Shown one piece after another: positions 5,484-63,397 of a stretch of 64,000 bases of DNA. The notes beneath the pieces were generated by a model. The model was not told the DNA's origin. It saw only the letters and a list, made by a program, of their open reading frames with translations, and made no database searches. This stretch comes from Nioella nitratireducens (lineage in GTDB: Bacteria > Pseudomonadota > Alphaproteobacteria > Rhodobacterales > Rhodobacteraceae). Location of the stretch: NCBI RefSeq assembly GCF_001879715.1, contig NZ_MNBW01000007.1, positions 124,001 to 188,000 on the forward strand, given 5' to 3'. Positions within the stretch are counted from its first letter, which is position 1, and every line of letters starts with the position of its first letter. The translations under genes were made by a program, and so were the position numbers.

Positions 5484-7115
5484 ATGGGCTGGATGAAAGA
5501 CGAAACCGGGTTGGAAAAGCGGGCAGCCAACTTTGTGCCGCTGACACCGCTGACCCATCTGCAACGCGCGGCGCTGGTCTTTCCCAAGCACGAAGCGCTG
5601 GTCTACGGCACCTTCCGCAAGACCTATGCCGACTATCACGCCCGTGTCTCGCAACTGGCCTCCGCCCTCGCCGCGCGCGGCATTGCCCCCGGCGACGTCG
5701 TGGCCACCGTCATGCCCAACGTGCCCGCACAGGCCGAGGCGCTTTTTGGCGTGCCCGCCTGCGGGGCAGTGCTGAACACCATCAACACCCGGCTCGACAT
5801 CGGCACCATCAGCTACATCCTCGACCATGGCGAGGCCACGGTGGTGCTGGTCGATACCCAGTTCCTCGGCGCCGTCGAAGAGGCCCTGAAAGAGATGGAG
5901 GCCGAAGCCCTGCCGCTCATCGTCGAGGTGCCCGATGAACAGGCGGGCTACCACGCGTCGGGCCGTCACCTGACATACGAAGACCTGCTGGCCGAGGGCG
6001 ACGCCGATTTTGAATGGATCATGCCCGCCGACGAATGGGAAAGCATCGCGCTCAACTACACCTCTGGCACCACCGGGCGGCCCAAAGGCGTGGTCTACCA
6101 CCATCGTGGCGCCTACCTGATCACGCTCGGCACACCCATCGCGTGGCGCATGACGCTGAACCCGCGCCTGTTGACGATCGTGCCCTTCTTCCACTGCAAC
6201 AACTGGTGCCACACGTGGATGATGCCCGCCCTCGGCGGCACTGTCGTGTGCTGCCGCGACGTGACCGCCAAGGCGATCTATGATGCCATCGCGGACGAGG
6301 GCGTGACCCATTTCGGCGGCGCGCCCATCGTGCTCAATGCCATCGTCAACGCCCCCGACGCCGACCGCCGCGCCTTCGATCACACCGTCGAGGTCTTTAC
6401 CGCAGGCGCGCCCCCCGCCCCGGCGACGCTCGCCGCGATCGAGCCGATGGGCTTCAACGTCACGCAGGTCTATGGCCTGACCGAAACCTACGGCCATGCC
6501 ACCGAATGCGTCTGGAAGGACGAGGATTGGGGCGATCTGGAGCAAGAGCCGCGCGCCGCCATCAAGGCCCGTCAGGGCGTCGCCCTGCCCACCATGGAAC
6601 CCATCGTGGTGATGGATGACGACCTGTGCCCGGTGCCGATGGACGGCCAGACCGTGGGCCAGATCATGATCCGCGGCAATTCGGTGATGAAGGGCTATTA
6701 CAAGAACCCCCGCGCCACCGCCGAGTCTTTCAAGGGCGGCTATTTCCATTCCGGCGATATCGCCGTGCAGCACCCCGACACCTACGTCCAGATCACCGAC
6801 CGCGCCAAGGACATCATCATTTCCGGCGGCGAGAATGTCAGTTCCGTCGAGGTCGAGGGCGCCCTCATGCACCACCCCGCCGTGCTGCTCTGCGCCGTCG
6901 TGGCCAAGCCGGATGAGAAATGGGGCGAAGTGCCCTGCGCCTTCGTCGAGCTCAAGGACGGCGCCGACGCCAGCGAGGAAGACCTGATCGCCTTCGCCCG
7001 CCAGCGTCTGGCCGGCTTCAAGACGCCCAAGCGCGTGGTGTTTCAGGAATTGCCCAAGACCTCGACCGGCAAGATCCAGAAATTCGAACTGCGCAAAGTG
7101 GCGGCCGATCTGTAG
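5484..7115 (+). CDS. AMP-forming acyl-CoA synthetase (medium-chain type)
   Basis: 543 residues of the ANL superfamily, making acyl-CoA from a free acid, ATP and CoA through an acyl-adenylate. Seen: the P-loop-like YTSGTTGRPKGVVYHH at about residue 192, the adenine-binding YGLTETYGH near 330, the hinge region ITDRAKDIIISGGENVSS near 440, and the C-terminal catalytic lysine in TSTGKIQKFELR near 530. A good ribosome site (GAGAGGAG) precedes ATG 5484. It is monocistronic and is followed by a strong GC hairpin. Family members prefer medium-chain or aromatic acids, but the substrate cannot be read here. Confidence 0.88.
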   Translation: MGWMKDETGLEKRAANFVPLTPLTHLQRAALVFPKHEALVYGTFRKTYADYHARVSQLASALAARGIAPGDVVATVMPNVPAQAEALFGVPACGAVLNTINTRLDIGTISYILDHGEATVVLVDTQFLGAVEEALKEMEAEALPLIVEVPDEQAGYHASGRHLTYEDLLAEGDADFEWIMPADEWESIALNYTSGTTGRPKGVVYHHRGAYLITLGTPIAWRMTLNPRLLTIVPFFHCNNWCHTWMMPALGGTVVCCRDVTAKAIYDAIADEGVTHFGGAPIVLNAIVNAPDADRRAFDHTVEVFTAGAPPAPATLAAIEPMGFNVTQVYGLTETYGHATECVWKDEDWGDLEQEPRAAIKARQGVALPTMEPIVVMDDDLCPVPMDGQTVGQIMIRGNSVMKGYYKNPRATAESFKGGYFHSGDIAVQHPDTYVQITDRAKDIIISGGENVSSVEVEGALMHHPAVLLCAVVAKPDEKWGEVPCAFVELKDGADASEEDLIAFARQRLAGFKTPKRVVFQELPKTSTGKIQKFELRKVAADL

Positions 7116-53449: not shown

Positions 53450-54406
53450 TCAGCGACGATGCACGAGGCGCGGGTTGGACAAGGTCGCCAACACGTCCGC
53501 CGTGAGGTTGAGCAGCACATAGGCCGCCGCGAAAATCAGCGCCACGGCCTGCACCACGGGCATGTCGCGCGCGGCCACACTATCGACCATCAACTGTCCA
53601 AGGCCCGGATAGACGAAGACCACCTCGACCACGACCACCCCGGTGATCAGGTAGGCAAGGTTCAGCGCAATCACGTTGATGATCGGGGCCAGCGCATTGG
53701 GCAGCGCGTGGCGCACGATGACCCGCATGGGCGTCATCCCCTTCAGCCGCGCCATCTCGATATAGGGGCTGGCCAGCAGGTTGATGATCGCCGCCCGCGT
53801 CATCCGCATCATGTGCGCGGTGACCACCAGCGTCAGGGTGATCGCGGGCAGGAAGGTGCGATAGAGCATATCCAGAAAATTCGGGTCGCCGCGGAAATTC
53901 GCCATCGAGGGGAACATGCCGCCCATCCCGGCCAGCCAGAAGATCAGGATATAGGCCACGAAGAATTCGGGGAACGAGATCGACGTCAGGGCCGAGGCGT
54001 TGACGAAACGGTCGAAGAACGAATTGCGGAACAGCGCAGCCAGAATGCCCAGCATCAGCGACAGCGGCACCGCGATGGCGGCGGCGTAAAGCGCAAGGAA
54101 CAAGGTGTTGCCAAGCCGCCCCCCGATCAGGTCGATCACCGGCCGGTGATTGGCCAGCGATGTGCCGAAATCGCCGTGCAGAACGCCCGCAAGCCATTGG
54201 ATGTAGCGGATATGCATGGGCAGATCGAGGCCAAGCTGGCGCCGGATGGCGGCCACGGTTTCGGGTGTCGCGGATTGTCCCAGGAATTCCTGCGCAAAGT
54301 CACCGGGCAAAAGTTCGGTGGCGAGGAAGATCAGAAGCGACACGATGAAAAGCGTCAGAAAGCCAAGGCCCAAACGCTTGAAGACCATTTTCCAGATATG
54401 TGACAT
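53450..54406 (-). CDS. Dipeptide-type ABC permease (DppB-like)
   Basis: 318 residues from ATG 54406, with AGGGGA upstream; an in-frame ATG seven codons earlier is less well placed. Six spans, the usual DppB N-terminal span (RLGLGFLTLFIVSLLIFLAT), the GDFGTSL signature and the contact helix EMARLKGMTPMRVIVRHALPN. Between it and the substrate-binding gene lies the stem-loop at 54464-54489, which should lower its level relative to the binding protein. Confidence 0.92.
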   Translation of the reverse strand: MSHIWKMVFKRLGLGFLTLFIVSLLIFLATELLPGDFAQEFLGQSATPETVAAIRRQLGLDLPMHIRYIQWLAGVLHGDFGTSLANHRPVIDLIGGRLGNTLFLALYAAAIAVPLSLMLGILAALFRNSFFDRFVNASALTSISFPEFFVAYILIFWLAGMGGMFPSMANFRGDPNFLDMLYRTFLPAITLTLVVTAHMMRMTRAAIINLLASPYIEMARLKGMTPMRVIVRHALPNALAPIINVIALNLAYLITGVVVVEVVFVYPGLGQLMVDSVAARDMPVVQAVALIFAAAYVLLNLTADVLATLSNPRLVHRR

Positions 54407-54463
54407 GTGTTCCCCTACAGGCCGCACCCGTCGGGCCCGGCTTGATCCCGTTCAAGACGATTA

Positions 54464-54489
54464 CCCCCCGGACCTTTCGGGCCGGGGGG
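54464..54489 (-). terminator. Stem-loop between binding-protein and permease genes
   Basis: An eight-pair GC stem (CCCCCCGG / CCGGGGGG) with a ten-base loop, ten bases past the substrate-binding stop. No U-run follows, so partial termination or protection of the upstream mRNA from 3' decay is likely. Confidence 0.6.
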
Positions 54490-54498
54490 CTGAGTGGA

Positions 54499-56067
54499 TC
54501 AGGCGAACCACCACCGCTCGGAAATGCGGTGACCGTCATTGCGCCAGTTGGACGCGATCTGGTCGTTATGGGCCAGTGCATCGCTGTAGGCGCCCACATA
54601 GGCCGCGAACATCGGGATGATCGTGCCGCCGTCATTGGCGACCAGATCCTGCATCTCGAAATACATTTCGCGGCGCAGGTCTTCGTTCAGCTCGGCACGG
54701 GCTTCGATGAGAAGCTCGTTGAATCGCTCGTTGCTCCAATAGGACTCGTTCCAAGCCGCGCCTTCGGAATAGGCGGTGGCGAACATCCAGTCTTCCGTCG
54801 GGCGACCACCCCAGTAAGTGCCGCAGAACGGCTTTTGCATCCAGACATTGGACCAGTAGCCATCGTTCGGCTCGCGCACGACATTCAGGTTGATCCCCGC
54901 TTGCGCCGCGGTTTCCGAGTAGAGCACACCCGCGTCGATCGCCCCGGCAAAGGCCGCGTCGGCAAGGTGGATATCCACGTCGAGACTGTCTAGACCGGCT
55001 TGTTGCAGGTAGTAGCGCGACCGATCCGGATCGAACGTCTTCTGTTCCAGTTCGGTGTTGAAGAACCGCTGACCGGGGCTGATCGGGTGATCGTTCCCGA
55101 CCGAGCCATAGCCATTCAGGATCGTATCCACCAGTTGCTGACGGTCGATGGCATATTTCAGCGCCTGACGGACATTGTTGTCGCTGAACGGCGCTTCGCG
55201 GGTATCCATCGGCAGGCCGTAGTGCTGCGAGCCCGTGATCGACAGGACATTGATGCCCGGCGCGCGCTGCATCAGGTGCACCGTGTTCAGGTCAACGGTG
55301 TCGATGTAGTCAACCTGCCCCGAGATAAGGGCGTTCTGACGGGCCGCCGCGTCGTGGATCGCGATCTGCTCCACCCCGTCGAAATAGGCGGCGTTGTCCT
55401 TCCAATATCCGTCATGGCGGGAATAGGTGGCGCTGACACCGAACTCCAGATCGTCGAGCCTGTAGGGGCCGCAACCGTCGGTGGTCATCGGGTCAATGGC
55501 ACCATCGGTCGAGGGCAGGATCGGCAGGTGATAATCCGACATGATGAACGGGAAGTCGGCATTGCCCGATTCCAGCGTGAAGATGACATTCATGCCATCC
55601 GCGCGCATCTCGGTGATGCCTTCCACGATCGGCTTGGCCGCCGAGGTGGAGTCTTCGCCCCGGTGATGGTTGATCGACGCGATCACGTCCTCGGCGGTCA
55701 CGGTGCGCCCGGAATGATACTGCACGCCCGAGCGGATGGTGAAGACCCACTCGGCGGCATCCGCCGACGCTTCCCAGCTTTCCGCGATCTCGGGGCGCAG
55801 CGTGCCATCGGGCATGATCTCGGTCAGGAAGTTGTTGCGGGTATGGGCCTGCAAAATCATGAAGTCGTTTTCCCACGACCCCGGATCGAGCGAGTCGGTG
55901 GTGGACCCGTGCGCCTGACCGATGCGCAGAACGCCGCCTTGCGTCGGCTGGGCCCGTGCCATCCGCGCGCCCATCGGCCCGAGCAATGCCGCGCCACCAA
56001 GCGCAGAGGCCCCTTTCAGAACGCCACGGCGGCTGACGCCACCCGTGAAGAGAGGAGTCTTCGTCAT
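54499..56067 (-). CDS. Dipeptide-type ABC substrate-binding protein, Tat-exported
   Basis: 522 residues from ATG 56067 (CGGAGAAAA upstream). The N-terminus is a twin-arginine signal, GGVSRRGVLKGASALGG, cleaved near ARAQ. The rest has the family 5 solute-binding fold: WVFTIRSGVQYHSGRTVTAEDVIASINHH, DPMTTDGCGPYRL, FSDNNVRQALKYAIDRQQLV. First gene of the operon, followed by two permeases and a fused ATPase. The export of the folded protein by Tat is common in roseobacters. Ligand unknown (peptides, or another amphiphilic solute). Confidence 0.93.
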   Translation of the reverse strand: MTKTPLFTGGVSRRGVLKGASALGGAALLGPMGARMARAQPTQGGVLRIGQAHGSTTDSLDPGSWENDFMILQAHTRNNFLTEIMPDGTLRPEIAESWEASADAAEWVFTIRSGVQYHSGRTVTAEDVIASINHHRGEDSTSAAKPIVEGITEMRADGMNVIFTLESGNADFPFIMSDYHLPILPSTDGAIDPMTTDGCGPYRLDDLEFGVSATYSRHDGYWKDNAAYFDGVEQIAIHDAAARQNALISGQVDYIDTVDLNTVHLMQRAPGINVLSITGSQHYGLPMDTREAPFSDNNVRQALKYAIDRQQLVDTILNGYGSVGNDHPISPGQRFFNTELEQKTFDPDRSRYYLQQAGLDSLDVDIHLADAAFAGAIDAGVLYSETAAQAGINLNVVREPNDGYWSNVWMQKPFCGTYWGGRPTEDWMFATAYSEGAAWNESYWSNERFNELLIEARAELNEDLRREMYFEMQDLVANDGGTIIPMFAAYVGAYSDALAHNDQIASNWRNDGHRISERWWFA

Positions 56068-56965
56068 ATTTTTTTCTCCGCTGTTGTCAGGGTCGTTTTC
56101 GAGACATTTGAAATCTCGGAACAATCTTGTCGGGACAGCACCACCATCGCGGCACACCCCGAATTCGGGCATCGAGGCCCGGTGTCATGAGTGAGTCTTC
56201 CCCGTCTCATGGCGTCAGTCTTACATGGTCAACCCCAATGGAAAACCGGAAATCGACCAGTCCGGGCCATTTTGCGACACCGCCGACTGATCGGCCTGCT
56301 GGCACAACGGCCCATTCTGGCCCGGCAGTGGCGGCTTTCGGCGCCGGAGCCCCTGCGGGGAAACAGGATGTCCCCGGCGCACTGCCAACGGCCGCTGCCG
56401 GATGGACGGACGACTTCGGGCCGGAGGGCATTGGGAAGGATGTGGATAGCTCACCAGGCAACGGTATGCCGGGGATAGTTATTGTAATATTGAAGCTATT
56501 GCGATGATCTTCACCACCAATAGTGCGCTATCTATCAGGTTTAAACTGTTCTTATAATTTGACTATTTTTGATATTAGCCATGAATTCCACTTGCGCGCT
56601 TTAGAGTACGAACATCAAAATATTGAAAGAAAATGTACCGCAAAAACGCACCAAATTCATCCAAATCCCACCCAAAACTCTGCGCTACCCGGCCACCCCC
56701 GTCCCTATCGACCGCCGCCCTGCCGCCCGCCCAAGACCCGACGAAATGATCCTTTGCGGCTGCAGAAACTCTGTCAGGAACAAGTGGGACTGCAAAGGCT
56801 TTTCCCATGTCGAGTCAAAGGGATTCCCCGTGAACATCACCTTGCGTCAAACATTTGATCAAATTTCTTGACGGCGGCCGCCCTCTATCCGGCACGATTT
56901 TCCCCCGCCCCGAAGCCACGGCAGACTCGCGCCCCAACATTCTGAATAAAAATGACTATTCCGGC
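56068..56965. other. 898-base intergenic region with AT-rich island and dyad
   Basis: No convincing gene is present. The right-to-left transcripts on either side end at 56966 and start at 56067, so the operon promoter should lie here. Bases about 56470-56700 are clearly AT-rich against the rest of the window, with runs such as TTATAATTTGAC and TATTTTTGATATTAG. At 56853-56864 there is a perfect palindrome ATTTGATCAAAT flanked by GTCAA and TTGAC. It may hold regulatory sites, a small RNA or a foreign remnant. Confidence 0.5.
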
Positions 56966-57985
56966 TCAGCCCGTCTCATCGAGGATATCGCAGGCCTTGC
57001 GTGCCAGCGGGGCCGCCAAGGCCCCCACTTGCAGCGCCCGATCCGACGACGCATTGCCCTGCAACCCGCGATATTTCACGCCCTGAACGATGGCAGCCAG
57101 CCGGAACAGCCCGAAGACCAGATAGAACGGCCAGTTCTCGATGCCCGGCAGTCCCATCCGCTCGCAATAGCGGGCGACATAGGCCTCTTCCGTCGGCAAC
57201 CCGAGCGCCCGCCGATCCAGCCCCTCCAGCCCGCTCAGCACCGGCCCCGGCGGCATCCGCCACAACATGCATTGATAGGCCAGGTCGGCCAGCGGATGGC
57301 CGAGAGTCGACAATTCCCAATCCATCACCGCGATCAGGCGCGGCGCGTCCGGCGCAAACATCACGTTATCCAGTCGGTAGTCGCCATGCACCAGCGACAC
57401 GCGCCCGTCATCGGTTACCATGTTGGCCCCAAGCCAGTCGATGATCCTCTCCATCTCGGGGATCGCTTCGGTCTCGGTCGCGCGATACTGGCGTACCCAT
57501 GTCGCGTATTGCCGGTCGTAATATCCGCCGGGGCGCCCGAAATCGGCCAGCCCAACGGCCTCCAGATCGACGGAATGGATCGCGGCCAGCACCGCATTCA
57601 TCTGATCGTATATCTCGGCGCGTTCTGCCGGGGCCAGACCGGGCAGCGCCGGGTCCCAGAAAACCCGGCCCTCGACGAATTCCATGACATAGAACATCGA
57701 GCCCAGAACGTTCTCATCCGCACAAAGATGCAGGGCCCGCGCCACCGGCACATCCGTCTGTGCCAACGCCGCCAGCACCCTGAATTCCCGGTCCACCGCA
57801 TGGGCCGACTTCAGCAACTCCCCCGGCGGTTTGCGCCGCAGGACGTAGGTTCCGCTTTCGGCCCGCAGCTTGAACGTCGGGTTGGACTGCCCGTCAGTAA
57901 ACTTCTGCGCCGTGCGCAGCCCCTTGAAGCCCTCAACCGCCCCCTCCAGGTAGCGCCCCAGCGGCCGCAGCTCTGCTTCCTCCAT
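56966..57985 (-). CDS. APH-family phosphotransferase (ACAD10/11- and LvaA-like kinase)
   Basis: 339 residues from ATG 57985, which overlaps the acyl-CoA dehydrogenase stop (TGATG). The fold is of the aminoglycoside-phosphotransferase/choline-kinase type: FTDGQSNPTFKLRAESGTYVLRRKPPG with the ATP lysine region, catalytic loop VHGDYRLDNVMF (about 200) and metal-binding MDWELSTLGHPLADLAY. Kinases of this branch sit next to, or are fused with, acyl-CoA dehydrogenases (human ACAD10/11) and phosphorylate 4-hydroxyacyl-CoAs in 4-hydroxy acid and levulinate breakdown. Two SDR genes lie divergently. Antibiotic modification is unlikely. Confidence 0.88.
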   Translation of the reverse strand: MEEAELRPLGRYLEGAVEGFKGLRTAQKFTDGQSNPTFKLRAESGTYVLRRKPPGELLKSAHAVDREFRVLAALAQTDVPVARALHLCADENVLGSMFYVMEFVEGRVFWDPALPGLAPAERAEIYDQMNAVLAAIHSVDLEAVGLADFGRPGGYYDRQYATWVRQYRATETEAIPEMERIIDWLGANMVTDDGRVSLVHGDYRLDNVMFAPDAPRLIAVMDWELSTLGHPLADLAYQCMLWRMPPGPVLSGLEGLDRRALGLPTEEAYVARYCERMGLPGIENWPFYLVFGLFRLAAIVQGVKYRGLQGNASSDRALQVGALAAPLARKACDILDETG

Positions 57986-59211
57986 CAGACCGGCCCCTTG
58001 TTTCCCGCATGACGGGCCCGCACCAATTGCCGCCCAAGCGCCATCATGTGCACTTGGTCCGGGCCATCGGCAAACCGTATCTGTCTGGCATAGTTGAATA
58101 ATTCCGCCAACGGCGTATCTTGTGTCAGCCCCTTGCCGCCATGGATCTGGATGGCCCGGTCGATCACCGTCTGCGCCATCATCGGCGCCACGATCTTGAT
58201 CGCCGAAATCAAGTCTTTCGCGGCCTTCGCGCCCTCGCGGTCTATCTTGGCGGCGGCTTTCAGCGTCAGCAGCCGCGCCTGTTCGATCTCGCACCAGCTC
58301 TTGGCGATGTCCTCGCGCACAGACTGGTGCTGGCTCAGCTTGCGCCCGAAGGTCTCGCGTTCTTCGACGCGGTCCATTGCCAGATCCAGCGCGCGCTGCG
58401 CCGCCCCCACCAGCCGCATACAGTGGTGAATCCGCCCCGGTCCAAGCCGCCCCTGCGCGATCTCGAACCCCCGGCCCTCGCCAAGCAGCAGGTTTTCCGC
58501 CGGCACCCGCACATCGTCGAACGCGATCTCGGCTTCGCCAAACGGCGCATCGTGATAGCCAAACGTCGTCACGTGGCGCAGGATCTTCACCCCCGGCGTG
58601 TCGCGCGGCACCAGTATCATGCTCTGTTGCTTGTGCCGGTCGGGGTTGTCGGCGTCGGATTTGCCCATGACGATGAAGACGGCGCAGCTCTCGCGCATCC
58701 CGCCGGTGGTGTACCATTTGGTGCCGTTCACCACGTAAGTGTCGCCATCCCGGCGAATTTCAGTGCGGATATTGGTGGCGTCGCTAGAGGCCACGTCGGG
58801 TTCGGTCATCGCAAAGCCGGACCGGATCGTGCCCGCCAACAGCGGTTCCAGCCAGCGGGCCTTTTGCGCCTCTGTGCCGTAGAGCATCAGGGTTTCCATG
58901 TTGCCGGTATCGGGCGCGTTGCAATTGAATATCTCGGGCGACCACCAGACCCGGCCCATGATTTCGGCCAGCGGCGCGTATTCCAGATTGGTCAGGTCGC
59001 CGCCATGTGCCTTGGGTCGAAACAGGTTCCACAGCCCTGCCGCGCGGGCCTTGTCCTTCAGATCATCATAGAAATCGGGGGTGCGGAACAGCGTCTCCGT
59101 GGTCTCGAAATGCCGCGCGAACACCGCCTCGGCGGGATAGATATGCGCCTCCATGAACTCGGTCAGTTGCGCCTGTAGGTCACGCATTTTTTGGGTCGGC
59201 TCGAAATCCAC
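57985..59211 (-). CDS. Acyl-CoA dehydrogenase (partner of the phosphotransferase)
   Basis: 408 residues. GTG 59211 is preferred over ATG 59226, since GGAGGAGAG lies seven bases before the GTG and includes part of the ATG-led segment. FAD-dependent family: FAMTEPDVASSDATNI (flavin and substrate contact), WYTTGGMRESCAVFIVMG, GYHDAPFGEAEIAFDDVRVP, the helical C-domain ERETFGRKLSQHQSVREDIAKSWCEIE, and the closing IQIHGGKGLTQDTPLAELFNYAR. The overall pattern is like ACAD10/11. The usual catalytic Glu position cannot be assigned with certainty by eye. Together with the kinase gene it may oxidise and dephosphorylate 4-phosphoacyl-CoAs. Confidence 0.9.
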   Translation of the reverse strand: MDFEPTQKMRDLQAQLTEFMEAHIYPAEAVFARHFETTETLFRTPDFYDDLKDKARAAGLWNLFRPKAHGGDLTNLEYAPLAEIMGRVWWSPEIFNCNAPDTGNMETLMLYGTEAQKARWLEPLLAGTIRSGFAMTEPDVASSDATNIRTEIRRDGDTYVVNGTKWYTTGGMRESCAVFIVMGKSDADNPDRHKQQSMILVPRDTPGVKILRHVTTFGYHDAPFGEAEIAFDDVRVPAENLLLGEGRGFEIAQGRLGPGRIHHCMRLVGAAQRALDLAMDRVEERETFGRKLSQHQSVREDIAKSWCEIEQARLLTLKAAAKIDREGAKAAKDLISAIKIVAPMMAQTVIDRAIQIHGGKGLTQDTPLAELFNYARQIRFADGPDQVHMMALGRQLVRARHAGNKGPV

Positions 59212-59366
59212 CGCTCTCTCCTCCATCTGTCTCAGGCGCAACGGTGGGTCGCACCGTGCCCCCTGTCAACTCTGCCGTAGTGTCACTCTGGCCCGCCCCG
59301 GAAACCGCTTGCCTTTCGCTTCATGGCGCCTAGCCTTGCCCCATGTCAGACAGGGAGGACCGCGCC

Positions 59367-60140
59367 ATGACCATCACCCCGCATCCGCTTTTCGACCTCT
59401 CCGGCCGCATCGCCCTTGTGACCGGTGCCAGCCGGGGAATCGGCGAAGAGATTGCCAAGATACTGGCCGAGCACGGCGCCCATGTGATCGTCTCAAGCCG
59501 CAAGATCGACGGCTGCACCGCCGTGGCCGAGGCCATCACCCAGGCAGGGGGCAGCGCCGAGGCGTTCCCCTGCCATATCGGCGACATGGACCAGATCGAA
59601 ACGATCTTCGACCATATCGCATCCACCCACGGGCGGCTGGACATCCTGGTAAACAACGCCGCCACCAACCCCTTTTTCGGGCATATCCTCGATACCGATC
59701 AGGCCAGTTTCGAAAAGACGCTGGACGTGAACATCCGTGGTTATTTCTTCATGTCGGTCGCAGCGGGCAAGATGATGCGAGAGCAGGGCAAGGGCGCGAT
59801 CGTCAACACCTCTTCGGTCAACGCGCTGGAACCCGGCGACATGCAGGGCACCTATTCCATCACCAAGGCCGCCGTCGTGAACATGACCCGCGCCTTCGCC
59901 AAGGAATGCGCGCCGCTTGGCATCCGGGTGAATGCCCTTGCTCCGGGCTGGACCCGAACCAAGTTCGCGGGCGCTCTCCTCGAGAGCGAGAAGCACTACA
60001 AGGAGATCATGGCCCGCCTGCCCATCAAACGCCCTGCCGAGCCGTCTGAAATGGCCGGTGCGGTGCTCTACCTCGTGTCCGATGCGGCCAGCTACACCAC
60101 CGGCGAGCTTCTGGTCGTCGATGGCGGGCTGACGATATGA
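59367..60140 (+). CDS. Short-chain dehydrogenase/reductase 1
   Basis: 257 residues from ATG 59367 with CAGGGAGGA seven bases upstream; a longer start at 59343 has no such site. Classical SDR: cofactor motif TGASRGIG (about 18-25), NNAATNP, catalytic Ser in NTSSVNA and YSITK (about 160), plus APGWTRTKFAG. The downstream gene overlaps by ATGA, giving a two-SDR operon divergent from the kinase/dehydrogenase pair. It could oxidise or reduce a hydroxyacyl-CoA. Confidence 0.9.
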   Translation: MTITPHPLFDLSGRIALVTGASRGIGEEIAKILAEHGAHVIVSSRKIDGCTAVAEAITQAGGSAEAFPCHIGDMDQIETIFDHIASTHGRLDILVNNAATNPFFGHILDTDQASFEKTLDVNIRGYFFMSVAAGKMMREQGKGAIVNTSSVNALEPGDMQGTYSITKAAVVNMTRAFAKECAPLGIRVNALAPGWTRTKFAGALLESEKHYKEIMARLPIKRPAEPSEMAGAVLYLVSDAASYTTGELLVVDGGLTI

Positions 60141-60874
60141 TGGGACGGTTCGACGGAAAGGTTGCCCTGATTACCGGCGCCGCCAGCGGCTTCGGGAAAC
60201 TTCTGGCCGAGGCGATGGCAGAGGAAGGCGCGCTGCTGGTCATGGGGGATCGAAACAAGTGGGGCCTGCGCCACGTGGCGCGTGGCCATGTCGCCACCTA
60301 CATGCGCTGCGATGTGACCAGGGAAGACAAGGTTCAGGCGCTGTCCGACCTCGCCATCGAGCAATTCGGCCGCCTCGACATCGCCGTCAACAACGCCGGG
60401 CTTGCGGGCCCGATGAAGCCCCTCACCGAGATCCGCGAGGATGAGTTCGACCTGATCCACGCGGTCAATGCCAAGGGCGTCTTCTTTGGCCTCAAGCACC
60501 AGATCCCCCTGATGCGGGCCGATGGCGGCACGATCCTGAACGTGGCCTCGGTCGCCGGTCTCGGTGCGGCCCCCAAACTGGCCGCCTATGCCGCCGCGAA
60601 ACACGCGGTTGTCGGCCTGACCAAGACCGCCGCCATCGAAGAGGCGCGCAACAACATTCGCGTCAATGCGATCTGCCCATTCTACAGTGACACCCCGATG
60701 GTGACCCAAGGGGCCATGGCCGACAAGCAGGACTTTCTGGCACAGGCCAGCCCGATGAAACGTCTGGGCACGGCGCAGGAAGTGGTGGCGACCATGCTGG
60801 CGCTGCTCGATCCGGCCAACAGCTATCTCACCGGGCAGGCCATCGCCGTCGATGGCGGAGTCACGGCGTACTGA
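60137..60874 (+). CDS. Short-chain dehydrogenase/reductase 2
   Basis: 245 residues, start ATG 60137 overlapping the first SDR stop. Classical SDR: TGAASGFG cofactor motif (about 13-20), NNAGLAG, the catalytic block VASVAGLG and YAAAKHAVV, and a C-terminal SYLTGQAIAVDGG. The glycine motif has Phe where Ile is common. It probably works with SDR 1 on successive or related hydroxyacyl intermediates. Convergent with the polyamine-type transporter operon. Confidence 0.9.
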   Translation: MMGRFDGKVALITGAASGFGKLLAEAMAEEGALLVMGDRNKWGLRHVARGHVATYMRCDVTREDKVQALSDLAIEQFGRLDIAVNNAGLAGPMKPLTEIREDEFDLIHAVNAKGVFFGLKHQIPLMRADGGTILNVASVAGLGAAPKLAAYAAAKHAVVGLTKTAAIEEARNNIRVNAICPFYSDTPMVTQGAMADKQDFLAQASPMKRLGTAQEVVATMLALLDPANSYLTGQAIAVDGGVTAY

Positions 60875-60926
60875 CCCCTGCCGCCTGCGCGTTCCGGCCC
60901 CTCCTTTACAAATCTGCGTAGCACAC

Positions 60927-60953
60927 AAAAAAGGCGGCCCCGAAGGACCGCCC
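60927..60953 (-). terminator. Intrinsic terminator of the polyamine-type transporter operon
   Basis: On the minus strand GGCGGTCC, the stable tetraloop TTCG, GGGCCGCC (one G-U pair), then TTTTTT. It lies 28 bases past the PotC-like stop and is the best-formed terminator in the window. Confidence 0.9.
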
Positions 60954-60980
60954 ATTTCATGACTGTATGTCTGTCGGTGC

Positions 60981-61835
60981 TTACTGAGGGCTCATGCCCC
61001 GCAAACGCTCGGACCGGCGGCGCAGGATTTCGACGGTCGCCAGCAAGACGACCGAGATACTGACCAGGATCGTCGCCGCCGCCAGAATGGTGGGCGAAAT
61101 CTGCTCGCGCAGGCCGGTGAACATCTGCCACGGCAGGGTCTTCTGCCCGGCGGAGCCGACGAACAACACCACCACCACCTCATCGAACGAGGTGATGAAG
61201 GCAAACAGACCACCCGAAATCACGCCCGGCAGAATAAGCGGCATCTGCACCCTGAAAAAGGTTGTTACCGGATCGGCCCCCAGATTTGCCGCCGCCCGCG
61301 TCAACGAGCGGTCAAAGCCCACAAGCGTCGCCGTTACCGTGATGATAACGAAGGGAATGCCCAGTGCCGCATGGGCCAGCACCACGCCCAGATACGTCCC
61401 CTGCAAGCCGATGCGGCTGTAGAAGAAGTACATGCCAGCCGCCGAGATGATCAGCGGGACGATCATCGGCGAGATCAGGATTGCCATGATTGCGCCCTTG
61501 AAGGGTACATGGCTCTGGCTCAGGCCGATGGCCGCCAGCGTGCCGAGCGAAACCGACAGGAACGTCGCCATAGGCGCGATCTTGATCGAGTTCCACAAGG
61601 GCTGCTGCCAGTTGGGGTTGGTGAAGAAATCCCGATAGTGTTGCAGGCTGTAAGCCTCGGGATCCAGCGCCAGCATCCCCGGCGTGAAGGTAAAGAAGTT
61701 CTCGGCGTTAAAGCTCAGCGGGATAATGGTGATGATCGGGGCGATCAGGAAGAAGAAGATTAACCCACAGATCACCCGGAACCCATAGAACCAGATCCGC
61801 TGGCCGGTCGTCGCATAAGGAGGAAGGCTGCTCAT
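60981..61835 (-). CDS. Polyamine-type ABC permease (PotC-like)
   Basis: 284 residues with six spans. Lead-in span IWFYGFRVICGLIFFFLIAPIITIIPLSF, LYSLQHYRDFF-like external strand, and the EAA-type contact region RAAANLGADPVTTFFRVQMPL (about 180-200) as in PotC/YdcV. Five bases after the PotB-like gene. Last gene of the operon, followed by the terminator. Confidence 0.9.
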   Translation of the reverse strand: MSSLPPYATTGQRIWFYGFRVICGLIFFFLIAPIITIIPLSFNAENFFTFTPGMLALDPEAYSLQHYRDFFTNPNWQQPLWNSIKIAPMATFLSVSLGTLAAIGLSQSHVPFKGAIMAILISPMIVPLIISAAGMYFFYSRIGLQGTYLGVVLAHAALGIPFVIITVTATLVGFDRSLTRAAANLGADPVTTFFRVQMPLILPGVISGGLFAFITSFDEVVVVLFVGSAGQKTLPWQMFTGLREQISPTILAAATILVSISVVLLATVEILRRRSERLRGMSPQ

Positions 61836-61840
61836 GATCT

Positions 61841-63397
61841 TTACCCCAGCTTCACGTTGTCGATGCCGACGAGTTTATCGTAGGCCCAGTAGAGGAGCAG
61901 GACCACCGCCAGCAGGATACTGCCAAGCGCGGCCGCGAGGCCCCAGTTCAGTGACGACGAGATGTGATAGGCAATCCGGTTCGAGATGAACGTGCCCGTC
62001 CGGCCGCCGACCAGTTCCGGCGTGATGTAGTAGCCGATGGACAGGATGAAGACGAGGATACACCCCGCACCGATCCCCGGCACCGACTGCGGGAAGTAGA
62101 CCCGCCAAAATGCCGTCCAGTTCGTCGCGCCAAGCGATTTGGCGGCCCGGACATAGGTCGGCGGAATGGTTTGCATCACCGAGTAGAGCGGCAGGATCAT
62201 GAACGGCAACAGGATATGCGTCATGGCGATGATCGTACCGGTCTGGTTGTTGATCAATTGCAATCGGTTGTCATCGGCGACAAGCCCGATCCACACCAGC
62301 ACGTCGTTGATCACCCCTTGTTGCTGCAACAGAACCTTCCACGCCGACGTTCGCACCAAGAGCGATGTCCAGAACGGCAGAAGAACAAGGATCAACAGCA
62401 GGTTCGACACCCGCGTCGGCAGATTTGCCAGCAGGAAGGCGATGGGGTAGCCCAACAGGACGCAACTGCCCATGATGACCATCGACATGAACAGCGTGCG
62501 TTCAAAGAGGGTGACGTAGATGCGCCGGTCCTCGGGCTGCGCGCTGACGCCATCGGCGGTCAACTGCATGTCGATCGCGGTCAGGAAGTAGCCGGGCGTG
62601 TAGCTGGGCGAATAGACCTTGATGGTTTCCATCACCGTCGGGTCCAGCCAGTCCTCGTCCATATCCGCGAACTGGTCGCGCAGCGACACGGACTCGAAAC
62701 CGGCGACTGCATCGGCGGCCGTCGAAAGCAGGGCATTGCTGCCAGAATAGCCAGTGTTGCTGAGGTCACGATATAGCGCCGTGAAAACGAAATCCTCGAT
62801 GTCTTCCTCGGCGGGAACGTCATCGTTCGCGTCGATGGTGATATGAATCCAGGTGTCGAAGGCATCCGACGTTTCCGGCAATGCGGCGCGAATGGCGTCG
62901 TCGTCCATCAGGCCGGTCCAGGTTTCATACTCGGCCCAGGCCGGGTCCAGCGCGGTGAACTGATCGGTGTAGATATCGGTGTCGAAACGTCCCACACCCC
63001 GACCCGCACGGCGGAACATCGAGGACACGCCGGTCAGCTCGTAGTTCAGTCGGCTGCCGACGCGGCTGTGGTTGCGGAACTCGGCCGCTTCGAAAATGTC
63101 ATAGTAGAGCGCGGCGTAGACGTCTTCGCCCGGCGCCTCGTCCGTGTTCGTCCACGTATCCAGCGCGACGACCGTGCGCGGCAGCGTATCGCGGACGATC
63201 TGGTTTTCCACCGAGCGGAACAACATGTCCGCGATCGGGGCGATGAATGTGATGAGAATAAAGATCAGGAGCGGCGCGATCAGCAAGAGCGCCCGGATCT
63301 TCTGGGCCCGAAGCGCGCGGTTGAGGCTCGCTTTCAGGGGGCGCCCGTCCGCGGCCAACACAGGGCCGGAGGGCGTTTGTGCCGTGTTGTCGGTCAT
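61841..63397 (-). CDS. Polyamine-type ABC permease (PotB-like) with duplicated external domain
   Basis: 518 residues, against about 280-420 for most PotB proteins. TM1 lies at about 36-60; then some 230 residues outside the membrane before TM2 near 302. In that loop two similar segments can be aligned by eye: LPRTVVALDTW at 72-82 with EDVYAALYYDI at 91-101, and LPETSDAFDTW at 173-183 with EDFVFTALYRDL at 201-212, followed by DQFTALDPAW and DQFADMDEDW. The permease core follows, with the contact helix VRAAKSLGATNWTAFWRVYFPQSVP. It overlaps the DUF1330 gene (ATGA). Confidence 0.9.
   Translation of the reverse strand: MTDNTAQTPSGPVLAADGRPLKASLNRALRAQKIRALLLIAPLLIFILITFIAPIADMLFRSVENQIVRDTLPRTVVALDTWTNTDEAPGEDVYAALYYDIFEAAEFRNHSRVGSRLNYELTGVSSMFRRAGRGVGRFDTDIYTDQFTALDPAWAEYETWTGLMDDDAIRAALPETSDAFDTWIHITIDANDDVPAEEDIEDFVFTALYRDLSNTGYSGSNALLSTAADAVAGFESVSLRDQFADMDEDWLDPTVMETIKVYSPSYTPGYFLTAIDMQLTADGVSAQPEDRRIYVTLFERTLFMSMVIMGSCVLLGYPIAFLLANLPTRVSNLLLILVLLPFWTSLLVRTSAWKVLLQQQGVINDVLVWIGLVADDNRLQLINNQTGTIIAMTHILLPFMILPLYSVMQTIPPTYVRAAKSLGATNWTAFWRVYFPQSVPGIGAGCILVFILSIGYYITPELVGGRTGTFISNRIAYHISSSLNWGLAAALGSILLAVVLLLYWAYDKLVGIDNVKLG

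Follow-up and report, generated by a model that had tools for sequence, protein, structure and literature searches.

4-Hydroxy acids arise from lipid peroxidation, from gamma-lactones and from chain-shortened hydroxy fatty acids, and mammalian enzymes for them, ACAD10 and ACAD11, were reported in 2024-2025 (PMC11342911, PMC12440821). In the excerpts of these papers considered here, a kinase step and an elimination step are shown for ACAD10/11 and, in vitro, for Burkholderia orthologues (PMC12440821, PMC11342911); the latter are described, in the excerpt of PMC11342911, as closer to the ACAD10 domains than the Pseudomonas putida proteins are and as able to stand in for these domains in vitro. 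In ACAD11, the 4-phosphate is bound by R626, H634 and R637, which conventional acyl-CoA dehydrogenases (ACADs) lack; R631 positions the substrate, and D753 serves as catalytic base (PMC12440821). The second described system is the lva operon of P. putida (LvaA-E). In this report, we compare with these systems a four-gene block of Nioella nitratireducens located in a 64,000-nucleotide stretch of contig NZ_MNBW01000007.1 (assembly GCF_001879715.1, positions 124,001 to 188,000, forward strand), referred to below as the window. The block encodes an APH-fold kinase, an ACAD-fold enzyme and two short-chain dehydrogenases/reductases (SDR1 and SDR2). We assign a probability of about 60% to the reading, predicted from sequence, that it is a bacterial, unfused ACAD10/11-type system which feeds 4-hydroxyacyl-CoAs to beta-oxidation, the SDR pair interconverting the 4-hydroxy and 4-oxo forms. 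The four genes form two divergent pairs (window 56966-60874), ACAD and kinase on the minus strand and SDR1 and SDR2 on the plus strand:

56966-57985, minus strand: APH-fold kinase, 339 aa; predicted 4-hydroxyacyl-CoA kinase of the ACAD10/11 kinase-domain type
57985-59211, minus strand: ACAD-fold enzyme, 408 aa from GTG; predicted 4-phosphoacyl-CoA eliminase of the ACAD10/11 type
59212-59366, no strand: divergent intergenic region; presumed from its position to hold the promoters of both pairs; aligned with four Nioella/Alterinioella loci
59367-60140, plus strand: SDR1, 257 aa; SDR of the PRK07035/DHRS4 clade with the NADP(H)-type motif VSSRK; predicted 4-oxoacyl-CoA reductase
60137-60874, plus strand: SDR2, 245 aa, NAD(H)-type; predicted 4-hydroxyacyl-CoA dehydrogenase acting in the opposite direction or with the opposite stereochemistry

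No solved structure in the PDB matches the ACAD-fold enzyme better than ACAD11 (8v3u, 1.6e-125), and the enzyme is 49% identical to the ACAD domain of mouse ACAD11. All five ACAD11 residues named above (R626, R631, H634, R637 and D753; the PDB numbering is one lower than that of PMC12440821) are identical in it, as R255, R260, H263, R266 and D382 of the 408-aa protein. The fetched loci gave 228 ACAD-like matches, 209 of which were aligned after a 300-900 aa filter; 156 of these rows (146 of 197 distinct sequences) keep the same set, the window's own two copies included. The set also occurs in mouse ACAD11 and in one ACAD of each of the seven DUF6285/lva-type loci (L270-L276), and it is missing in all seven Nioella ACAD paralogues examined (of 21 paralogue matches). 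The host genome (4.01 Mb) contains a single ACAD of the window type, the next-best one being about 31% identical. In a quick tree, in which long branches were flagged, the window enzyme and ACAD11 share a 40-row clade with a Shimodaira-Hasegawa-like approximate likelihood ratio test (SH-aLRT) support of 100, and the LvaC group is separate at 100; the rows of this and the other trees were hand-chosen from the fetched loci, the lva references among them are not the KT2440 sequences but come from genomes taken to be Pseudomonas, where the operons were identified by their gene order, and the rows labelled lva-type include L274 and L276, which are DUF6285 loci without the order kinase-DUF6285-ACAD-SDR.

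The kinase, to which the host genome holds a single match, gives a parallel picture. Its PDB matches are headed by 3dxp (1.9e-114), followed by the ACAD11 kinase domain (8v3v, 1e-81), and it is 42% identical to the kinase domain of mouse ACAD11. The ACAD11 kinase residues D220, N225 and R176 correspond to identical residues D202 (the catalytic Asp), N207 and R158, and D222 of the window kinase, which we presume to have a metal-binding role, is also kept. In a quick tree, a 55-row clade supported at 100 excludes the LvaA group, and within it the window kinase and the ACAD11 kinase, a long branch that was flagged, fall in a 37-row set at 93 only. From this homology and from the conserved active-site residues we infer the kinase and ACAD steps for the Nioella pair, and catalysis on 4-hydroxyacyl-CoA is predicted with high confidence. 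The original prediction is supported in part: the pair has sequence features specific to a 4-hydroxyacyl-CoA kinase and a 4-phosphoacyl-CoA enzyme, and 4-hydroxy acids are its likely substrates.

Like mammalian ACAD10 and ACAD11 (PMC12440821, PMC11342911), the pair combines two predicted activities with the kinase D/N/D and the ACAD R/R/H/R/D residues; unlike them, it is encoded by two genes, ACAD then kinase, instead of one chain starting with the kinase, it lacks the HAD domain found in ACAD10, and it has SDR genes as neighbours. With the Burkholderia orthologues (kinase Q63VL0 in the excerpt of PMC11342911) it shares the state of unfused bacterial proteins. Burkholderia arboris, which was compared in place of the proteins of that study, has the order kinase-SDR1-SDR2-ACAD in a single direction, unlike Nioella.

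Three records touching these families deserve a remark. PDB entry 3dxp was deposited as a "putative acyl-CoA dehydrogenase", yet it aligns with the window kinase over most of its length, and the title is likely a mislabel carried over from a fused eukaryotic protein. Entry 9o56 was considered as the SDR1-adjacent kinase of Pseudomonas-like genomes and was rejected as a clearly divergent protein (320 bits). Loci L169 and L185, from records titled as metagenome-assembled genomes (MAGs) of Klebsiella pneumoniae, carry an ACAD 65-66% identical to that of the window, like other gammaproteobacterial MAGs, and their titles look mislabelled.

SDR1 passes the NF005446 (PRK07035) model with 444.5 bits (cut-off 373), and the top two of the 739 PDB sequences that it matched are human and pig DHRS4 (3.2e-52 and 5.3e-51), an NADP(H)-dependent carbonyl/retinal reductase reported to be peroxisomal. 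A related SDR, here called D4-like, lies directly before ACAD and kinase in the gammaproteobacterium L150, and the top three of its 706 PDB matches are DHRS4 of pig, human and worm. In two careful trees, the human, pig and worm forms of DHRS4 join the D4-like SDRs (98/86 and 98/90), and the two together join SDR1 at 100/99 in each tree, with LvaD outside; in a quick tree the joint clade of SDR1, DHRS4 and D4-like SDRs is found at 94. The rows of these trees were hand-chosen from fetched loci, and the only outgroups were other Nioella SDRs, SDRs of LvaD type and of various other kinds, FabG and a small number of PDB entries. Of 20 additional Nioella SDRs, 14 passed a filter for glycine motif and length; nine stood in the first careful tree and six in the second, from which one other SDR and four D4-like rows were also left out. 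The mammalian DHRS4s have the VSSRK motif in common with SDR1. Unlike SDR1, DHRS4 is placed in the D4-like sub-branch, and pig DHRS4 reaches 228 bits on the PRK07035 model, below the cut-off, and a higher score, 259, on the broad PRK07231 model.

The L150 SDR has matches (E<=1e-58) in 56 of 398 genomes, one of them being an SDR1 orthologue, and the weakest few (41-45% identity) are probably not of the D4-like type. Among 20 D4-like neighbourhoods taken from the upper part of this match list, nine, distributed over three family codes, have both kinase and ACAD within about 9.5 kb; the other 11 lack both. The trees and neighbourhoods thus put SDR1, as a new finding, in a clade composed of animal DHRS4 and bacterial SDRs often encoded beside the kinase/ACAD pair; its identification with LvaD was rejected on the trees.

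A Ser-Arg pair at the end of strand beta-2 is the usual mark of NADP(H)-type SDRs and an Asp at this position that of NAD(H)-type SDRs. All 71 SDR1-type rows (44 distinct) carry the Ser-Arg pair, mostly as VSSRK and otherwise as VSSRR, VTSRK or ISSRR. The Asp is found in all 21 close SDR2-type rows (17 distinct) and in 16 of 17 more distant ones (14 distinct); the top PDB match of SDR2 is 7djs. An NADP-type SDR1 with an NAD-type SDR2 would fit a pair that interconverts 4-oxo and 4-hydroxy forms and feeds an R-preferring kinase.

In the proposed pathway, the kinase would phosphorylate the 4-hydroxyl group of a 4-hydroxyacyl-CoA and the ACAD-fold flavoenzyme would eliminate the phosphate without net oxidation, so that the resulting 2-enoyl-CoA could enter normal beta-oxidation. 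The ACAD10 kinase prefers the R enantiomer of 4-hydroxyhexanoyl-CoA, its product yield being about fourfold that obtained with the S enantiomer (excerpt of PMC11342911). SDR2 would oxidise the poorly used S enantiomer to the 4-oxo form with NAD, and SDR1 would reduce 4-oxoacyl-CoA with NADPH to the R enantiomer preferred by the kinase; by this route, the SDR pair would open racemic 4-hydroxy acids, gamma-lactones and 4-oxo acids to the cell. These roles of SDR1 and SDR2 are assigned tentatively, at odds well short of even.

In the three named Nioella loci (L122-L124) the four genes recur in unchanged order, with a DNA identity of 81.8-81.9% over 56966-60874, and the same four families stand together in other orders in B. 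arboris, Alcanivorax and other Gammaproteobacteria, a recurrence which argues that the arrangement is not due to chance. The kinase has relatives (E<=1e-30) in 113 of 198 genomes of the host family. At the 80 best of 377 ACAD-found loci in named genomes, Nioella included, a kinase is near in 41, SDR1 in 18 and both SDR1 and SDR2 in 11; many of these loci lie on short contigs, and for the 42 with a length of 13.1 kb or more the respective numbers are 27, 18 and 11. SDR1 relatives (E<=1e-75) were found in 33 of 398 genomes of the phylum, counting the window and a same-genus genome; of the other 31 loci, none of them from Nioella, 26 have an APH kinase no more than 4 kb away. Fifteen of these 26 come from a single family (f34, taken to be Pseudomonadaceae), in which the kinase is more distant (33-37%) and a window-type ACAD is not near. 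In the host family, 80 kinase loci were hand-chosen from the places of kinase matches, and 50 of them have an ACAD nearby.

Several observations weigh against a four-gene functional unit. An SDR1 was near in only two of the 80 host-family kinase loci, one of them from the same genus; five of the 31 SDR1 loci show no kinase in the stretch compared (about 8-9.5 kb on each side), and only ten have a window-type ACAD. The close relatives L125 and L126 (Rhodobacteraceae) retain kinase and ACAD in the same flanks and lack the SDR pair, the difference corresponding to window 59225-60991 with the flanking transporter genes kept, and L127 keeps SDR1 and lacks SDR2; the three loci amount to a natural experiment on the need for the SDRs, and the SDR pair is dispensable. 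Neither a CoA ligase nor a regulator open reading frame (ORF) was seen beside the four genes, where the scanned neighbours are parts of ATP-binding cassette (ABC) transporters; the rest of the window was read by eye. ACAD11 R86, a CoA-contact residue, could not be aligned with confidence in the kinase, the one-residue offset which fits the other sites putting it on a Phe; an Arg adjoining the alpha-C Glu is present in both kinases. Finally, SDRs tend to be promiscuous, and the NAD/NADP assignment is a prediction from the general motif rule given above. Considering the ACAD-, SDR1- and kinase-anchored counts together with L125-L127, the kinase and the ACAD form the core of the system, with the SDR pair as an accessory whose presence follows that of the kinase.

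These points lend some weight to the best-surviving alternative, according to which the kinase and ACAD still act on 4-hydroxyacyl-CoA and the SDR pair is a mere neighbour that serves another step, such as 3-hydroxyacyl, steroid, terpenoid or other carbonyl reduction. It is favoured by L125 and L126, by the rarity of SDR1 near host-family kinases, by the five SDR1 loci without kinase and by the 11 D4-like loci with neither partner. Against it stand the 26 of 31 SDR1 loci with an adjacent APH kinase and the distribution at the ACAD-found loci, where 18 of the 41 that have a kinase also have SDR1, against none of the 39 without one, many of these being short contigs; we consider this alternative unlikely.

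Less probable still is an lva-type levulinate (4-oxo acid) operon, in which the SDR would reduce levulinyl-CoA and the kinase and ACAD would process the resulting 4-hydroxyvaleryl-CoA. The chemical logic is the same, and the locus resembles the lva operon in having a kinase, an SDR and an ACAD fold whose five residues are also found in the reference rows; moreover, SDR1 is the best Nioella match of an lva-operon LvaD, if barely (149 bits, the next one 143). One of the reference operons, L272, has a divergent 653-aa ORF in the regulator's place, then a 353-aa kinase, a 118-aa DUF6285 protein, a 390-aa ACAD and a 255-aa SDR, and continues with a ligase-like ORF, a DUF485 protein and a sodium:solute symporter, an arrangement in agreement with the lva operon in the excerpt of PMC6692424. 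This order of kinase, ACAD and SDR around DUF6285 recurs in L270, L271, L273 and L275 but not in L274 or L276. DUF6285 (LvaB type), whose gene separates those of kinase and ACAD in the reference operons, was found in seven of 99 genomes of the genus taken to be Pseudomonas and has no match in the host genome, and for this reason a full lva operon was rejected. To the lva proteins of L271, the kinase is 30% identical (LvaA, over 234 aa), the ACAD 34% (LvaC) and SDR1 39% (LvaD); all three fall outside the LvaA, LvaC and LvaD clades of trees built with these non-KT2440 references, and no linked ligase (LvaE), LvaF/G or LvaR was seen beside the genes.

The seven DUF6285-positive genomes (G642, G630, G591, G611, G636, G652 and G622) themselves argue against the lva reading, since each carries a second ACAD elsewhere that is 58-59% identical to that of the window, and the ACAD at their DUF6285 locus is 36-38% identical to it; five of the seven have the lva-like gene order. 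Three of three other genomes of the same family code have an ACAD with 57-58% identity. LvaC is quoted as 62% identical to ACAD10 and 56% to ACAD11 (excerpt of PMC11342911); the LvaC of our reference operon is only 34% identical to ACAD11, which counts against treating the reference operons as equivalent to that of KT2440, and the second ACAD might fit the quoted identity better. With the ACAD10/11 branch, the missing DUF6285 match and the position of SDR1 outside the LvaD clade, the filing of the locus under levulinate degradation in the original prediction is not supported, and the assignment of the kinase and ACAD to the ACAD10/11 type rather than the lva-operon type is well supported by their sequences. 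That the kinase is an aminoglycoside phosphotransferase of the antibiotic type and its neighbour a standard acyl-CoA dehydrogenase, as the APH Pfam domain might suggest, is scarcely credible, given 27 bits on the APH(3') equivalog (cut-off 205), best matches to 3dxp and the ACAD11 kinase domain, and the ACAD11 phosphate-binding set in the adjacent ACAD.

The gene layout was confirmed as first described: the kinase ATG and the ACAD stop codon TGA share one base, SDR1 and SDR2 overlap by four bases, and the two pairs are divergent. The listed ACAD ORF begins with TTG at 59241; the homology of its closest relatives begins at residue 11, corresponding to GTG 59211, and this codon was therefore taken as the start. 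For SDR1, homology begins near ATG 59367 (residue 9) in two of four aligned relatives and at residues 1 and 11 in the other two, which makes ATG 59367 a likelier start than 59343. Pfam assigns APH to the kinase (188.9 bits), the N, M and C domains of Acyl-CoA_dh to the ACAD and adh_short/adh_short_C2 to both SDRs. The block is flanked by genes of ABC transporters, which encode a family-5 solute-binding protein with a permease on one side (53450-56172) and two permeases on the other (60981-63397), and the nearest named relatives at the locus are Nioella (Rhodobacterales).

A further protein, of the His_Phos_1 family with the motif RH[GA]QASFG wherever it was read, lies near the kinase/ACAD pair in Gammaproteobacteria, Burkholderia and some Rhodobacteraceae: at 16 of the 80 ACAD loci, 20 of 30 anchored SDR1 loci (L262, with 49% identity, is below the anchor threshold and is counted only among the 31 SDR1-found loci) and 22 of 79 anchored host-family loci. 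Sites are L118 5295-5966, L199 5240-5920, L233 12075-12752, L154 5237-5938, L087 8388-9035 and L119 5296-5943, the last being annotated as histidine phosphatase. As a fifth member of the Nioella locus it was rejected, the only Nioella match (38%) being on another contig. By analogy with the HAD domain fused in ACAD10, a phosphatase-type partner may be a repeated theme, perhaps for the repair of stranded 4-phospho products.

As to the supply of CoA esters, a ligase of the window had been suggested as the source. The AMP-binding enzyme encoded at 5484-7115 is a possible unlinked activator of 4-hydroxy acids, being 49-50% identical to lva-operon LvaE and second best in the genome; the case is weakened by its distance of about 50 kb from the four genes and by a higher-scoring LvaE match (52%) on contig C16. 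The natural substrates are likelier to be hydroxy fatty acids and lactones than levulinate, as judged from an oxylipin report and from the arithmetic of beta-oxidation, by which a 10-hydroxy C18 acid becomes a 4-hydroxy C12 acyl-CoA after three rounds. In the neighbourhood of L254, a histidine phosphatase motif, an SCP2 protein, the kinase and SDR1 stand together, and PA1829 of Pseudomonas aeruginosa may, judging by neighbourhood, be such an SDR1-adjacent kinase, which is suggestive only. In the report concerned, as excerpted, the effector genes named for the oxylipins 10-HOME and 7,10-DiHOME include PA1829 ("putative aminoglycoside phosphotransferase") (PMC6377657). The excerpt of PMC10949508 names gene modules for 4-hydroxyvalerate and levulinate, but not PA1828 or PA1829.

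In the excerpts available, ACAD11 of zebrafish and man carries a type 1 peroxisomal targeting signal (PTS1) and DHRS4 is among the listed PTS1 proteins (PMC8919083), both occur in protein tables of liver peroxisomes (PMC11673421), and ACAD11 is assigned to peroxisome and mitochondrion and DHRS4 to peroxisome and nucleus (PMC8658024). Excerpts of the literature naming both proteins contained lists, tables, localisation remarks and networks, and no functional link between them. The reported substrates of DHRS4 are broad (retinal, aromatic ketones, alpha-dicarbonyls and 3-ketosteroids), and the excerpts on DHRS4 do not mention 4-oxoacyl-CoA reductase activity. A wider proposal, doubtful at present, gives SDR1, the D4-like SDRs and animal DHRS4 a common ancestral function in the ACAD10/11 pathway, the NADPH-dependent conversion of 4-oxoacyl-CoA and 4-hydroxyacyl-CoA into each other. 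In bacteria, SDR1 and SDR2 would then form a redox epimerase that lets both enantiomers reach an R-preferring kinase, and in vertebrate peroxisomes DHRS4 might act as the missing partner with which ACAD11 handles the 4-oxo and S-4-hydroxy acids that lipid peroxidation produces.

By its sequence, the kinase and ACAD pair of Nioella is a clean bacterial member of the ACAD10/11 kind, and its pairing with an SDR of the DHRS4 clade is the part worth attention. The bacterial clusters indicate that the kinase/ACAD pair is accompanied by an enzyme of a third kind and suggest DHRS4, reported from the same organelle as ACAD11, as a candidate for the human partner of ACAD11; they may thereby bear on the purpose of DHRS4 and on how cells use both enantiomers of 4-hydroxy acids.

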